NCBI GenBank assembly: GCA_902594855.1
Contig: CACJNS010000001.1
Location: forward strand, 292,696-356,695
DNA: 64,000 nucleotides
Direction of reading: 5' to 3'
From: an uncultured SAR86 cluster bacterium
GTDB lineage: Bacteria; Pseudomonadota; Gammaproteobacteria; Magnimaribacterales; AG-339-G14
Shown: one piece after another, positions 57,207 through 62,688 of the stretch
How the letters are laid out: each line of letters opens with the position of its first letter
Position numbering within the stretch: position 1 is the stretch's first letter
The notes under the pieces: generated by a model
The model's input: the letters and a program-made list of their open reading frames with translations, nothing else
What the model was told of the DNA's origin: nothing
Databases searched by the model: none
Program-made: the position numbers and the translations under genes

Positions 57207-57246
57207 CCGCTTTCTTTTTTGTTCTTTTAAAGGTTTAATATTGCCC

Positions 57247-57537
57247 ATGAAATTTAAGCTGTTTGCAATTCTTTTTGCGCTCGTCTTTTCAGCGGGGATT
57301 ATCTCGCATGAGACATCGCATTTTGAAATGGATCACGGCGAGCACGCTCATAACGAGCATGAGGTTGAACTAACTGAAGATTGTTCAACTTGTTTAGCTG
57401 AACAAATTGAGTACGTGCATGAAGATACCGTTGTTAATCCAACAACCATATCTTTTGATTTCCTTGATGCTTATCAGCCAAGAGAAATCACCCTTTCTTA
57501 CAATCAACTCTCTATTCGCGCACCACCAAGAAATTAA
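57247..57537 (+). CDS. Small exported His-rich protein, possible metal binder
   Basis: A 96-residue protein with a signal peptide (about 17-20 residues). It then has a His/Glu-rich stretch (HETSHFEMDHGEHAHNEHEVE) broken across residues 22-44 and a CSTC pair. It ends in a region rich in Tyr, Arg and Pro. I do not recognise a named family with certainty; the size, signal and CxxC recall DUF2946-type proteins found beside metal-uptake TonB receptors. It lies 38 bp before the TonB receptor on the same strand, which suggests an accessory role in metal binding at the cell surface or periplasm. Confidence 0.7.
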   Translation: MKFKLFAILFALVFSAGIISHETSHFEMDHGEHAHNEHEVELTEDCSTCLAEQIEYVHEDTVVNPTTISFDFLDAYQPREITLSYNQLSIRAPPRN

Positions 57538-57575
57538 ATTTTATTTTTTTTAATTTTTAATTTTTTGGAGGTTTT

Positions 57576-59897
57576 GTGAAACATTTTATTTATTTTTTAT
57601 TAGTTCTATTCAGTGCTCAATATTTATTGGCGGATGATGTAGAAGAAATCGTAGTTACATCTTCTTTGATTGACGTGAAGCTTAGCGATGTTGGAGAGCC
57701 AGTTCATATCCTGTCTGGAGTTGATCTCGATGCGCAAGGGAGAGCGAGTCTGGGAGAATCCATTGATAGCTTGTTAGGTGTATCAAACGCAGATTATGGA
57801 TTTGCTACCGGTCAACCGGTCATTAGAGGATTATCTGGCAGCAGAGTCAAAATTCTTAAAAACGGAATGGTCAATAGAGACGTATCTGCTATTGGAGTGG
57901 ATCATCCCGTTGAGATCGATATGAATAACCTTGAACAAATTGAGGTTGTTAGAGGTCCTTCTTCGTTGCTATATGCCAACGGAGGTGTCGGTGGGATTAT
58001 CAATATTGTTGATAACACCATTGCCAGAAAAGATTTTGAAGGTGAAGAGATTAATCTAGATATCGAAGCTCAATCAGTAAACAAAGGAATAGCAACAGCT
58101 TTTGGTGCTCGTAATAACATCAATGGAGTTAACCTAAGCTATTCTTACGAGAACACAGATTTTGGTAATTACGAGATTCCAGATGGTAGTGTCATGCATT
58201 CAGAAGAAGAACATCATGACGAACATGAGGGTGAAGAAGAGCATCATGATGAGCATGAAGATGAGCACGAAGAAAAAGAATCTGGATACTTAAGTAACTC
58301 TGACTACGAACGTTTTTCTCATAAATTAGGTTTTTCAAAAGTTGAAGACTGGGGTTACATTGGTGGTTCAATAAATATTCTTGAAACGCATTACGGTATC
58401 CCTTATCACGGAGAAGGTCATGGCGGACACGGTGGTCACGATGAGCATGAAGGTGAAGAAGAGCACGAAGGCGAAGAAGGTCATGATGATGAGCACGAAG
58501 GTGAAGAAGGTCATGACGCTCATGAAGGCGAGAGAGTTTTCGCAGTTACTGATTCCAAAGAAGCTAATATCGAAGGTTCTTATGCCTTTGATGCAGGCGC
58601 TTTAAATAAAATTAACTATTTTCTCAGAAACACTAACTATTCATTAACTGAAGGTCATGCAGAAGCAGGTCACGATGAGCATGAAGGTGAAGAAGAGCAC
58701 GAAGGCGAAGAAGGTCATGATGATCATGAAGAAGAAGGTCCAACTACATTCTCTAATGATGCAATTGAGTTTGGGGCAATTTTAGATTTCTCAACAAACG
58801 ACTTGGGTCAAAAATTATCCATTAATCTTGCTAAGGAAGATACTTCTATAATCGGTCATGAGGCTTTCATGAATCCAACTCAATCTGATGAATACACCTT
58901 TGGTTATTTTATTTCTAAAGATTTAGGAGCTCACCACTTAGACTTCGGAGCTAGATATGATTCAGTAGCTAGGAAAGGTTCTTTGAGCGAACATGATGAG
59001 CATGAGCATGATGAGCACGAAGGTGAAGATGGTCACGACGAGCACGAGGGTGAAGAAGAGCACGAAGGCGAAGAAGAGCATGCTGAAAAAACTTTTTATG
59101 ACGTCAATATGGACAGCGCTAGTTTGGCTCTGACTTATTCTTACGATATTTTAGATGATGTCAGATTGTTAATTGGAGCAGCGTCAGTTCAAAGAGCGCC
59201 ATCAGCATTAGAGCTTTTCATGAACGGTCCTCACTTAGCTACCGGCAGGTTAGAAACTGGGAACGTTAATCTAAATTCAGAGAGATCTAACAACGTTGAT
59301 CTTACTTTAGAGTTTGACGTTGACAATTGGTTTGGAAACTTCTCGATTTATGCCAATAACGTAACTGATTACATCTATTTACAAGATGAAACTGAAGAAG
59401 ATCACGAAGAGGAAGGTCATGACGATCACGGTGGCCTAATCAAAGCAGATTATCTTCAGAAAGATGCTGAGTTCACCGGGTATGAGATAGAAGTTGGTAC
59501 GGTTATCGATGTTAACGATGGAGCGGTTGAGATTTCTATTGGAAGAGATTCAGTTGAAGGAAAATTTGCCACAGGAGGCTTCATTCCGCGCATGACGCCG
59601 AACAGAAATTTCTTTGATGTGTCATACAGAAACAATGATTTAAAAACTTCTTTGACTCTGAAAGATGTCGAGGAGCAAACCAAACTTGCTCTGAATGAAA
59701 CTGCAACAGGAGCATATCAAATGTTGAACTTCACCATCTCTGGTACAGTCGCATTGGATTCCGATGTTGATTTGAATCTTGCTTTCTTTGCATCAAATAT
59801 TCTTGATGAGGCAGCAAGGAATCATAATTCGTTTGTAAAAGATCAGGTCCCCTTGCCTGGCAGAAACGTAGGTTTGCGCTTTAGCTTACGATTCTAA
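57576..59897 (+). CDS. ZnuD-like TonB-dependent outer-membrane receptor with His-rich insertions
   Basis: A 773-residue TonB-dependent receptor, start GTG after a GGAGG ribosome site. Signal peptide about residues 1-19, then a TonB-box-like EEIVVTSS, a plug domain to about residue 145 (QPVIRGLSGSRVKILKNG, IEVVRGPSSLLYANGGVGG), and a beta-barrel ending in LPGRNVGLRFSLRF with C-terminal Phe. Five insertions rich in His, Glu and Asp sit at about residues 208-233, 278-318, 361-388, 470-505 and 605-620, consistent with extracellular loops. The fold and the His/Asp-rich loops match ZnuD-type zinc receptors. Other transition metals cannot be excluded from sequence. Confidence 0.88.
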   Translation: MKHFIYFLLVLFSAQYLLADDVEEIVVTSSLIDVKLSDVGEPVHILSGVDLDAQGRASLGESIDSLLGVSNADYGFATGQPVIRGLSGSRVKILKNGMVNRDVSAIGVDHPVEIDMNNLEQIEVVRGPSSLLYANGGVGGIINIVDNTIARKDFEGEEINLDIEAQSVNKGIATAFGARNNINGVNLSYSYENTDFGNYEIPDGSVMHSEEEHHDEHEGEEEHHDEHEDEHEEKESGYLSNSDYERFSHKLGFSKVEDWGYIGGSINILETHYGIPYHGEGHGGHGGHDEHEGEEEHEGEEGHDDEHEGEEGHDAHEGERVFAVTDSKEANIEGSYAFDAGALNKINYFLRNTNYSLTEGHAEAGHDEHEGEEEHEGEEGHDDHEEEGPTTFSNDAIEFGAILDFSTNDLGQKLSINLAKEDTSIIGHEAFMNPTQSDEYTFGYFISKDLGAHHLDFGARYDSVARKGSLSEHDEHEHDEHEGEDGHDEHEGEEEHEGEEEHAEKTFYDVNMDSASLALTYSYDILDDVRLLIGAASVQRAPSALELFMNGPHLATGRLETGNVNLNSERSNNVDLTLEFDVDNWFGNFSIYANNVTDYIYLQDETEEDHEEEGHDDHGGLIKADYLQKDAEFTGYEIEVGTVIDVNDGAVEISIGRDSVEGKFATGGFIPRMTPNRNFFDVSYRNNDLKTSLTLKDVEEQTKLALNETATGAYQMLNFTISGTVALDSDVDLNLAFFASNILDEAARNHNSFVKDQVPLPGRNVGLRFSLRF
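58434..58490 (+). repeat. 57-bp perfect direct repeat inside the TonB receptor gene, copy 1
   Basis: Starts GGTCACGATGAGCATGAAGG and is identical base for base with 58668-58724. It encodes GHDEHEGEEEHEGEEGHDD. The same motif family recurs less exactly at 58200-58275 and 58990-59090. Confidence 0.95.
58668..58724 (+). repeat. 57-bp perfect direct repeat inside the TonB receptor gene, copy 2
   Basis: Identical to 58434-58490, 234 bp downstream and in the same reading frame (234 is divisible by 3). Recombination between copies would delete one loop and a beta-hairpin segment without a frameshift. Confidence 0.95.
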
Positions 59898-59975: not shown

Positions 59976-61181
59976 ATGGAAAATGTTATCAATTCAAAAC
60001 TCCCTGTAACTGTTTTATCAGGGTTTCTTGGTGCAGGTAAAACAACCGTACTAAGCAATATCTTAAATAATAGAGAAAACAAAAAAGTTGCCGTCATTGT
60101 TAATGATATGAGCGAAATAAATATTGATTCGGCAATTGTTCAAAATGAAGTTTCTTTAAACCGCAGTGAAGAAAAACTTGTTGAAATGAGCAATGGATGT
60201 ATTTGTTGCACACTTCGCGAGGATTTATTAGAAGAAGTAACTAAATTGGCTAAGGAAAACCGTTTTGACTATTTGGTTATTGAGTCAACGGGTATTTCAG
60301 AACCCTTGCCGGTTGCAGAAACTTTTACCTTCGCTGATGAAGATGGCATTTCTTTATCCGATGTTGCCAAGCTAGATACTATGGTAACTGTTGTGGATGC
60401 TGTAAATTTTATTAAAGATTACGATCAAGCTAAAAGCCTTCAAGAAGCAGGCGAATCTATGGGTGAGGATGATGAGCGAAGTGTGGCTGACTTGCTGGTT
60501 GATCAAGTGGAGTTTGCAGATATTATTCTTATCAGCAAAACTGATCTTGTCACCTCAAAAGAGGTAGAGCGTTTAACTGCCATCATAAAAACACTCAACA
60601 CGGATGCAAAAATCATTCCAATTGAAAACGGAAATGTAGAAATCGATGAGGTTCTGAATACTAATTCTTTTGACTTTGCGCGCGCGCAACAATCACCTGG
60701 CTGGCTTAAAGAAATGAGAGGTGAACATGTGCCTGAAACAGAGGAATACGGAATTTCGAGCTTTAGTTATGAAGCGCGCAGACCTTTCCATCCTGAAAAA
60801 TTTCATAATTTTCTTCATGGAACAGAAAAGTATGGAAAATTAATTCGTTCAAAAGGATATTTCTGGTTGGCCACTCGTCCAGAATTTGCCGGTCAATGGA
60901 GTCAAGCTGGAGGAATTGCTCGTTACGGTTTTGCGGGGATGTTTTGGAAAGCTGTTCCAGAAAAAGATTGGCCGCAGGAAGAAGAATATCTTGAGTCCAT
61001 CAAGAAACAATGGGTTGAGCCGTTTGGAGATATGCGTCAAGAATTAGTCTTTATTGGCCAAAGACTTCAAAAAGAAAAAATGATTGCTGCTTTGGATGCA
61101 TGTCTTTTAAGTGAGGAAGATGTTCTTAAAGGAAGAGAGTACTGGTCTACTTTCAATGATCCTTTTCCAGCGTGGAAGTAA
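59976..61181 (+). CDS. CobW/COG0523 GTPase, ZigA-type zinc metallochaperone
   Basis: A 401-residue G3E-family GTPase. Walker [10 protein letters not shown] at 16-24, the metal motif CICC at 75-78 in [12 protein letters not shown], SxGxSEP in ESTGISEP, and SKTDLV for guanine recognition. The C-terminal CobW_C domain has [13 protein letters not shown] and [11 protein letters not shown]. The subgroup is that of ZigA/YciC, zinc-transferring GTPases made under zinc limitation. The DUF1826 gene 18 bp downstream and the ZnuD-like receptor upstream support this. No clear Zur box was found in the 78 bp before it. Confidence 0.9.
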
Positions 61182-61199: not shown

Positions 61200-61835
61200 A
61201 TGAGATCAATTTTTAGTAATAAGTTAGAAAGTTTTGCAAATATTTATTCAAAGGATATCGAACTAGTGTGCATGGCTCATCCTCAATCAAGCTATTTAGA
61301 TACTTTGGGAAAAAAAATTCTCAACACAAGGAAAGACCTCGAACTTCAATGGATTCAATCTCTAAATGATTTGAGAGTCGTAGATGAACTGCTACCAGCA
61401 TCGATTGATTCTGAAGCAAAAAAAATGCTCGCTGACCAAATAAAAGAGAGCTGCGGCATGCTGCATGAAACTTTAGATTGTAAGTACGTTGGGGTTAGGC
61501 TCTTAACCCTCGATAAACCCATGTGTCCTAGGTTTCATGTTGACCAAATTCCATGCAGATTGCTAATTACACTTTCTGGTGGTGGGACCGAATGGATCGC
61601 AAATGAAGATGTTGATTGGAAACTTTTTGACGACAGAACAAATCTTGATGCCCCATTAAAAGAAAAAAAGAAAGTAAAGCAATTTAAAGCTGGCGAATGG
61701 TCGTTGTTGAAAGGCGGAACTTGGCAAAGTCAGTTCAATGGTGTTGTCCACCGATCTCCAAACATAAATGAAGACAGATTAATGTTGTCTTTAGATCCTA
61801 TTTTTGATGAAGATCAATTCAAGATGTATGTATGA
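61200..61835 (+). CDS. DUF1826 protein of the zinc-starvation cassette
   Basis: A 211-residue protein. The core PMCPRFHVDQIPCRLLITLSGGGTEW, then EWSLLKGG and a HRSPNI motif, is the DUF1826 pattern: conserved Cys, His and Asp that could bind a metal in a double-stranded beta-helix-like fold. DUF1826 genes are repeatedly found beside ZigA-type GTPases under Zur control in proteobacteria. Biochemical role is unknown. ATG start with GGAGA nearby; same strand as the GTPase. Confidence 0.83.
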   Translation: MRSIFSNKLESFANIYSKDIELVCMAHPQSSYLDTLGKKILNTRKDLELQWIQSLNDLRVVDELLPASIDSEAKKMLADQIKESCGMLHETLDCKYVGVRLLTLDKPMCPRFHVDQIPCRLLITLSGGGTEWIANEDVDWKLFDDRTNLDAPLKEKKKVKQFKAGEWSLLKGGTWQSQFNGVVHRSPNINEDRLMLSLDPIFDEDQFKMYV

Positions 61836-61871: not shown

Positions 61872-62639
61872 CTAGAAAATGTGATGCAACCACTCGATTA
61901 ATTTCGGGTGGTTCGTCACATCCAAGATGTATTCTTGTCCGCGACCTTTGCAATGCGTAATACATTCTTTCTTATCTACCCACTTGAGTCTGTTTAAAAA
62001 AGGGTCTGAATTTGCAAAATATTTCTTTGGTAATTGCCAAACAGAACGGGTTGCTTGATCTTTTGTTAGGATTAAATCTTTGTGAGTTTTTTTAAAATGT
62101 CCGAAACCTTTATGAGATGTTTTTTTATTTCCTAAGGTTAACTTTTTTGACCCAACGTAAAGGCAATTATTGTTGAATTTATAAAAAGCATGCGGATGCA
62201 TCTTTTTTTTATTTTTAAAGTATTCTTGAATCGCTTCATTGCCATCGATTATTTTATCTATTTGAAGCCAGCCAAAAATATGATGCAGGTCTTTTCCTTT
62301 TTCAAAGTAATTTTTAAACCAACCAAAAAATAAAAAAAGATCTCCAGGTCCAACTTGATTGTTTCGCAACTCGGATTGCGAACTGCTTGCTTGTCCAAAT
62401 AATCCTGTATCTAGATTTGGATCGTAATGACAATTATCATCTGGCTTACTTTTTGCCTTGGATTCTTTCAAGGCATCGATACACCTAATGCCATTAACGC
62501 TGACATCTTGAAACTTATCCGGGGCCGGTCCTGAGAAAGGAATGGGCAAAGAACATAACCTCCCATCAGAAAAAATAGGTGACGCAACACCGCCAGAAGA
62601 CGAATCAAAGCCTTTTCTGCTCAAAATGATTCTTTTCAT
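61872..62639 (-). CDS. Nmad3-like protein (putative nucleotide modification associated domain 3)
   Basis: A 255-residue protein starting at the ATG at 62639 (a TTG precedes it). The N-terminus MKRIILSRKGFDSSSGGVASPIFSDGRLCSLPIP closely matches what I recall of the Nmad3 family, proposed by computational work to belong with base-modification systems, often in phage or mobile settings. Later conserved-looking parts are LFLFFGWFK and FGWLQIDKII near 104-130, and a basic C-terminal half with LGNKKTSHKGFGHF. The sequence here is not accompanied by a glycosylase, kinase or methyltransferase. Its 3' end is built from the stem-loop repeat. Function unknown. Confidence 0.7.
   Translation of the reverse strand: MKRIILSRKGFDSSSGGVASPIFSDGRLCSLPIPFSGPAPDKFQDVSVNGIRCIDALKESKAKSKPDDNCHYDPNLDTGLFGQASSSQSELRNNQVGPGDLFLFFGWFKNYFEKGKDLHHIFGWLQIDKIIDGNEAIQEYFKNKKKMHPHAFYKFNNNCLYVGSKKLTLGNKKTSHKGFGHFKKTHKDLILTKDQATRSVWQLPKKYFANSDPFLNRLKWVDKKECITHCKGRGQEYILDVTNHPKLIEWLHHIF
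61876..61920 (+). repeat. Stem-loop repeat element, copy 2
   Basis: Same architecture and orientation as 59898-59942: TGTGATGC, a 10-bp helix AACCACTCGA/TCGGGTGGTT with a TTAATT loop, and an outer helix TGTGA/TCACA. About 31 of 41 aligned bases match copy 1. Three inner base pairs differ by changes on both sides and one by a G-U pair, so pairing is kept. It covers the last codons of the convergent Nmad3-like gene. Confidence 0.8.
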
Positions 62640-62688
62640 CAATTCATTATTGCATTAAATTATTGAGTGATTCTTTCAGTCTTAATAC

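Follow-up and report, generated by a model that had tools for sequence, protein, structure and literature searches.

The 64,000-nt stretch of DNA analysed here (the window), part of a SAR86-cluster genome of 1.23 Mb (G000), carries what is probably a zinc locus built around a ZnuD-type TonB-dependent receptor, in which the extracellular loops of the receptor copy sequence from each other and a short upstream leader appears to stand in for the regulator Zur. Nothing else at the locus is as unusual as this leader, which the sequence-only reading had overlooked; a metal-sensing arrest leader, as it is predicted to be, in the place of Zur is apparently a new combination of known parts. SAR86 is a common bacterial group of the surface ocean, where zinc is scarce, and to our knowledge little is known about zinc uptake and sensing in streamlined bacteria. 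At the level of sequence, the locus shows metal-binding loops of a single receptor being copied from one to another, and its leader provides a testable zinc counterpart to metal sensors of the nascent-chain type, which have been described to date for copper; a natural replacement between Zur and leader, found in one relative, serves as a control for the zinc-leader reading.

The receptor gene (57576..59897, + strand) starts with GTG and encodes 773 residues comprising a plug and a barrel domain, both recognised by Pfam. Its top NCBIfam model is ZnuD (NF038289), with a score of 203 bits that is far below the cut-off of 950; the protein is therefore named ZnuD-type here and is not filed under that family. 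The sequence-only reading had called it a ZnuD-like receptor, which agrees with the comparison to solved proteins: ZnuD is the closest solved relative both by sequence (4rdr; E 3.8e-34 with the receptor alone, E 2.3e-146 with a profile of 42 relatives) and by structure, the AlphaFold2 model (mean pLDDT 77.7, pTM 0.78, 22 strands) being matched best in VIA-align by ZnuD 4rdt (Z 47.0, rmsd 1.9, 593 residues aligned). The zinc ligands of ZnuD, given in excerpts of the literature as Asp99, His100, Glu340 and His499, correspond in the alignment to D109, H110, E359 and H553 of the receptor; among 42 sequences, H110 and H553 are invariant, while D109 and E359 are kept in 41 (with a gap in the remaining one for E359). 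By its computed fold and ligand conservation the receptor is a ZnuD-type transporter, and zinc would be the metal it binds and takes up. Like ZnuD of Neisseria meningitidis (PDB 4RDR, 4RDT, 4RVW), it is a 22-strand TonB receptor with four zinc ligands and a His/Asp-rich loop 3; unlike the meningococcal protein, it has five expanded loops (L2, L3, L4, L6 and L8) which exchange sequence, and no Zur box was found near its gene; the relative G059 has one. A search of open-licence PMC texts found no paper treating SAR86 and ZnuD together.

The next gene downstream (59976..61181, + strand) encodes ZigA, a zinc metallochaperone GTPase of COG0523 (NF038288, 702.5 bits, cut-off 600), and is followed by a gene for a DUF1826 protein (61200..61835, + strand). 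This pair follows znuD in the window and in two other genomes (G002, G007) and was not found at the site in G001 and G006; ZigA scores above its cut-off in 13 of 41 relatives. A gene for an Nmad3 nucleotide-modification-associated protein (61872-62642, − strand) adjoins the zinc operon, and at one other locus (L008) an ORF judged by eye to be similar lies just upstream of the receptor. As regards the route across the inner membrane, ZnuA (PF01297) was not found in the window genome and occurs in one of 40 family genomes, ZIP was found in none of 21 genomes, and HupE_UreJ_2 is present in 35 of 41.

Upstream of the receptor lies an ORF (57241..57537, + strand) of 98 aa from a TTG, or 96 aa from the ATG at 57247, which is predicted to be a metal-sensing ribosome-arrest leader; 38 nt separate its end from the start of the receptor gene. 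Its N-terminus is hydrophobic, and it contains a His-rich stretch, a CSTC motif (residues 48–51) and, at the C-terminus, RAPPRN; the RAPP codons, counted from the sequence at 57517..57528 (+ strand), are the predicted arrest site. RAPP is described as a demonstrated ribosome-arrest motif in passages of two papers (PMC10951233; PMC12992588), and the passages of the latter, a survey, also report arrest uORFs ending in RAPP or RGPP to be enriched upstream of TonB-dependent receptor genes. A structure model of the leader is uninformative (pLDDT 64), and no family in Pfam or NCBIfam, DUF2946 (PF11162) included, matches it.

The leader is a nearly constant feature of the SAR86 receptor loci examined. 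In two sets gathered by whole-protein search, a RAPP-tailed ORF was found just upstream of the receptor in 28 of 29 and 21 of 22 loci, that is 49 of 51. The two loci counted as leader-less belong to G059 (L008) and G029 (L147); at L147 a leader is present but frameshifted, and its receptor also has an internal stop, leaving G059 as the one genome that lacks a leader for a reason other than a frameshift. Among wider relatives, 65 loci extend far enough upstream to be judged, and 35 of them have a short ORF with an R[AG]PP tail upstream of the receptor; some of the search patterns for this set were taken from inserts, so that it favours receptors which have them. At two of the 35 (L093, L097) the ORF is more than 500 nt away. 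Loci from Bacteroidota and Marinimicrobia mostly have RGPP tails. Elsewhere, R[AG]PP tails were found twice among the 2621 short ORFs examined, one of the two (L092) overlapping the receptor start. The counts required R[AG]PP, and leaders ending in QAPP were scored as misses in the sets of 65 and 29 loci. Four SAR86 loci (L036, L037, L048, L053) have a leader just upstream of the receptor with the tail QAPPKIII in place of RAPP; in a Myxococcales leader with QAPP, the Q matters for arrest. A CxxC is present in 24 of 28 SAR86 leaders, always 40–42 residues before RAPP (41 in the window leader), and the other four (L013, L015, L016, L017) have a single Cys at this site. The spacing is nearly fixed while leader sequence drifts to 12–22% identity, and all six leaders of the genus are 96 aa long when read from the ATG, in contrast to the labile inserts of the receptor. 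One Opitutaceae MAG has, downstream of its receptor, a second short ORF that is rich in His and has a RAPP tail (L063:8179-8496).

The end of the leader and the start of the receptor gene are predicted to form an mRNA hairpin (57515..57580, + strand), whose 5′ arm (57515-57538) comprises the RAPP codons through to the stop and whose 3′ arm (57556-57580) comprises the Shine-Dalgarno site and the GUG start. Four of the five bases of the Shine-Dalgarno sequence GGAGG (57567..57571, + strand) are paired in the predicted fold, and the region 57495-57620 has a minimum free energy of −22.4 kcal/mol (z −4.97), with none of 200 shuffles as good. Of 28 SAR86 leaders, 22 have two or more Shine-Dalgarno bases paired to the region from RAPP to the tail; no such pairing was found in the remaining six (L007, L014, L015, L016, L017, L028). 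In a control set of ten unrelated tandem gene pairs, which leaves out the QAPP leaders of L036, L037 and L048, two show the Shine-Dalgarno site paired to the tail of the upstream gene. The registers of pairing differ between lineages, and the two arms coevolve: when arms were permuted among 20 representatives, to which 43 loci had been reduced, own arms bound with a mean of −11.62 as opposed to −9.00 for swapped ones, and none of 5000 permutations did as well; for two of the 20, 17 of 19 foreign arms bind better than their own. Related loci do not count as independent cases. A scan for promoters and terminators stayed at chance level.

It is unlikely that the ORF encodes an ordinary small periplasmic metal chaperone to which the RAPP tail and the hairpin are incidental. 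The product does look exported and rich in His and Cys, and arrest is predicted from sequence; however, a chaperone would not account for RAPP or RGPP tails concentrated upstream of receptors as counted above, for a nearly fixed CxxC-to-RAPP distance in otherwise diverged sequences, or for tail codons that coevolve with the Shine-Dalgarno site of the next gene.

An arrest leader, by comparison, has close counterparts. Like CruR, the DUF2946 leader of Bordetella pertussis bfrG, the SAR86 ORF would encode a small exported product at the head of an operon for a TonB receptor; it has a CXXC and a C-terminal RAPP, the latter needed for control in CruR, at a conserved spacing (45 by CruR residue numbers, 41 in the window leader; excerpts of PMC9426467). 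A predicted helix at residues 3–23, together with the hydrophobic N-terminus, corresponds to the export signal or transmembrane segment of CruR leaders. In the same excerpts CruR responds to copper, acts through Rho-dependent termination and is followed by a gap of 162 nt, whereas here the gap is 38 nt, a hairpin sequesters the Shine-Dalgarno site in the predicted fold and the receptor is of the zinc type. Membership of the leader in DUF2946 was considered and rejected; since PF11162 does not match, the leader may be said to work like CruR but is not filed as a DUF2946 protein. Ten of 12 loci with a PF11162 protein (L114–L125) end in R[AG]PP, L117 and L119 being the exceptions, and the SAR86 leaders may for this reason be an unrecognised arm of the DUF2946 family. 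CutF of Rhodobacter capsulatus, as described in passages of PMC9973294, likewise senses metal as a nascent exported chain; its tail is rich in proline, and a stem in the mRNA hides the Shine-Dalgarno site of the following gene. It differs in having CxxxC, in sensing copper, in its target, a multicopper oxidase, and in its positive response to metal. The word zinc does not occur in the main text of the CruR paper (PMC9426467) or of the survey (PMC12992588), the passages of which describe neither Shine-Dalgarno pairing nor a replacement of Zur, and a zinc leader of such a type was not found in open-licence PMC texts.

By analogy to CruR and CutF, control might proceed as follows. Without zinc, the ribosome would stall on RAPP and keep the hairpin open, so that the receptor would be translated; with zinc bound by the nascent CxxC/His segment, the arrest would be relieved and the Shine-Dalgarno site would become buried in the hairpin. 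In a RAPP stall, as the passages of PMC12992588 have it, the two proline codons occupy the P and A sites, and a ribosome halted in this position would presumably cover the 5′ arm of the hairpin. Conservation, spacing, Shine-Dalgarno pairing and coevolution of the leader are results of computation; arrest and its relief by metal, the identity of the metal and the sign of control are modelled on the two known systems, and the sign is not fixed, the response of CutF to metal being in the other direction.

The distribution of Zur bears on the identity of the metal. The one Fur-family protein that the window genome encodes is Fur by its score (179 bits against a cut-off of 146). A second Fur-family gene above cut-off is present in just one of 61 genomes, G059; the best model for its product is Zur, for which its 122 bits lie below the cut-off of 167, and the zinc uptake regulator 4mtd is among the solved relatives that match it best. 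In 14 other SAR86 genomes this Zur-like protein has no close match, the only hit being the Fur of the window genome at 3.2e-4. Just upstream of its receptor, G059 has a Zur box, TGTTATGTTATAACA, which deviates from the Zur core by one mismatch and is equalled in none of 100 shuffles; at every other locus the best match to the core has at least three mismatches, and the window holds four two-mismatch sites, a number at chance level, none of them near the receptor gene. As G059 has Zur and a Zur box and no leader, this swap suggests, from a single genome, that zinc is the ligand and that the leader is a stand-in for Zur; apart from G059, Zur is absent from the SAR86 genomes searched, where the leader appears to take its place. 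We consider it somewhat more probable than its negation that the SAR86 zinc receptor is controlled in a Zur-free manner, with zinc sensed by the CxxC/His segment of an exported nascent peptide and a stall at RAPP opening the hairpin over the ribosome-binding site, and that Zur and leader are interchangeable modules.

An alternative as to the metal is a receptor for another one, copper for instance, under a CruR-type copper leader, which is rather improbable here. CxxC alone is a copper motif too, operons for copper receptors begin with CruR-type leaders that have CXXC and RAPP according to the excerpts of PMC9426467, and the copper receptor OprC is the next structural match after ZnuD (Z 38.7); but ZnuD is clearly the better match and its ligands are kept, ZigA adjoins the receptor, and G059, which has Zur, carries a Zur box in front of the orthologous gene.

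The sequence-only reading had proposed that the receptor carries five His/Glu/Asp-rich inserts sharing an EHEGEEEH theme. All five are present in the sequence; the literal motif occurs in inserts 1–4 and is absent from insert 5 (DETEEDHEEEGHDDH). All eight occurrences of codons of the HEGEE type (CAYGARGGNGARGAR) in the 1.23-Mb genome fall within the receptor gene; a control pattern gave none. With approximate bounds, all on the + strand, and strand joins numbered from the N-terminus of the model, insert 1 (about 58188..58289) lies between strands 3 and 4 in extracellular loop L2; insert 2 (58404..58541) between strands 5 and 6 in L3, the His/Asp-rich loop of meningococcal ZnuD, and it conforms to the His/Asp/Glu-rich extracellular loop 3 of ZnuD receptors; insert 3 (58647..58742), which starts at the predicted ligand E359, between strands 7 and 8 in L4; insert 4 (58980..59093), of which 28 bp are common to inserts 2 and 3, between strands 11 and 12 in L6; and insert 5 (59379..59435), whose length is constant in the genus, between strands 15 and 16 in L8. 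Each insert falls in an odd-to-even strand join and is therefore extracellular in the model, as both barrel ends of TonB receptors are periplasmic; a periplasmic placement was found for none of the five. Nearly all insert residues have low confidence in the model, as would be the case for disordered loops. The five disordered loops may form a metal-catching net over a single buried zinc site made of Asp109, His110, Glu359 and His553, in which the loops themselves would bind metal. The principle of such a net is already known, because loop 3 of ZnuD, with its clusters of His, Asp and Glu, is described as a metal-catching “fishing net” in passages of PMC4557270 and PMC2895646; the variant here is its spread to five loops. 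Loops that are surface-exposed in the model and variable in length might instead serve to evade phages or grazers, or to change antigens, which we regard as very unlikely: the inserts use a narrow alphabet of His, Glu, Asp and Gly with repeated His in each, kept across relatives, while evasion would presumably favour chemical diversity.

Two of the inserts contain the same 57 bp, in insert 2 (58434..58490, + strand; the probable recipient) and insert 3 (58668..58724, + strand; the probable donor). The duplication, noted already from the letters alone and taken there as a sign of recent copying, proved to be exact, in frame and the longest repeat in the receptor gene. When synonymous codons of the inserts were shuffled 2000 times, the longest repeat had a mean length of 22 bp and was never above 48 bp, so a common amino-acid composition alone is insufficient to produce 57 bp. 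Low-complexity convergence, by which few amino acids and AT-biased codons would yield the repeat with no recent copying, can explain shorter matches, those of 28–29 bp being no rarity under shuffling (174 of 2000 runs give at least 28) and the repeats of 23–29 bp in other congeners lying near their own nulls; for the 57 bp, which no shuffle reached and whose motif the other five congeners lack in insert 2, we hold it to be highly improbable. The repeat is limited to the window gene, the only one of 42 relatives to have it, and distant relatives do not conserve it. EEEHEGEEGH is found in insert 3 of three congeners (window gene, G006, G008); in insert 2 the window gene alone has it, all five other congeners lacking it there. 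Since sister species have the motif in insert 3 and not in insert 2, the simplest history is that insert 3 was probably copied into insert 2 after the split from the sister species, the direction being given by parsimony; gene conversion or template switching may have been the process. Over DEHEGEEEHEGEE, the two copies of the window show no differences, and differ from insert 3 of the sisters at 2–3 positions. Synonymous differences amount to 0 of 19 codons between the window copies compared with 23/145 and 25/144 (~16–17%) between sister species; 19 codons identical by descent have p ~0.03, and a dating of the copy by synonymous identity alone is weak, suggestive rather than decisive.

The receptor gene is present in six of nine genomes of the genus, each time with five inserts. 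Nearly all of the 42 relatives have inserts 1 and 2; insert 3 is found mainly in SAR86 and close kin, and the presence of inserts 4 and 5 is irregular. In all 15 pairs of congeners, the gap runs lie within inserts and none in the 604 core columns, although alignments of the inserts are ambiguous due to their low complexity; the genes of G006 and G008, set apart at 5 of 146 synonymous codons of the core, nevertheless have an indel of 10 residues between them in insert 2. The sequence-only reading had envisaged that loop number and length may vary between cells; among the six congeners, length varies between species and number is constant. Loops of this kind would evolve by copying among themselves and by in-frame indels. 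A scan of viral contigs found no relatives. In another SAR86 lineage, exact matches of 38 and 33 bp link inserts 1 and 2 of two receptor genes (L041:6001-8250 and L049:6001-8250), which 3 and 2 of 300 shuffles, respectively, equalled.
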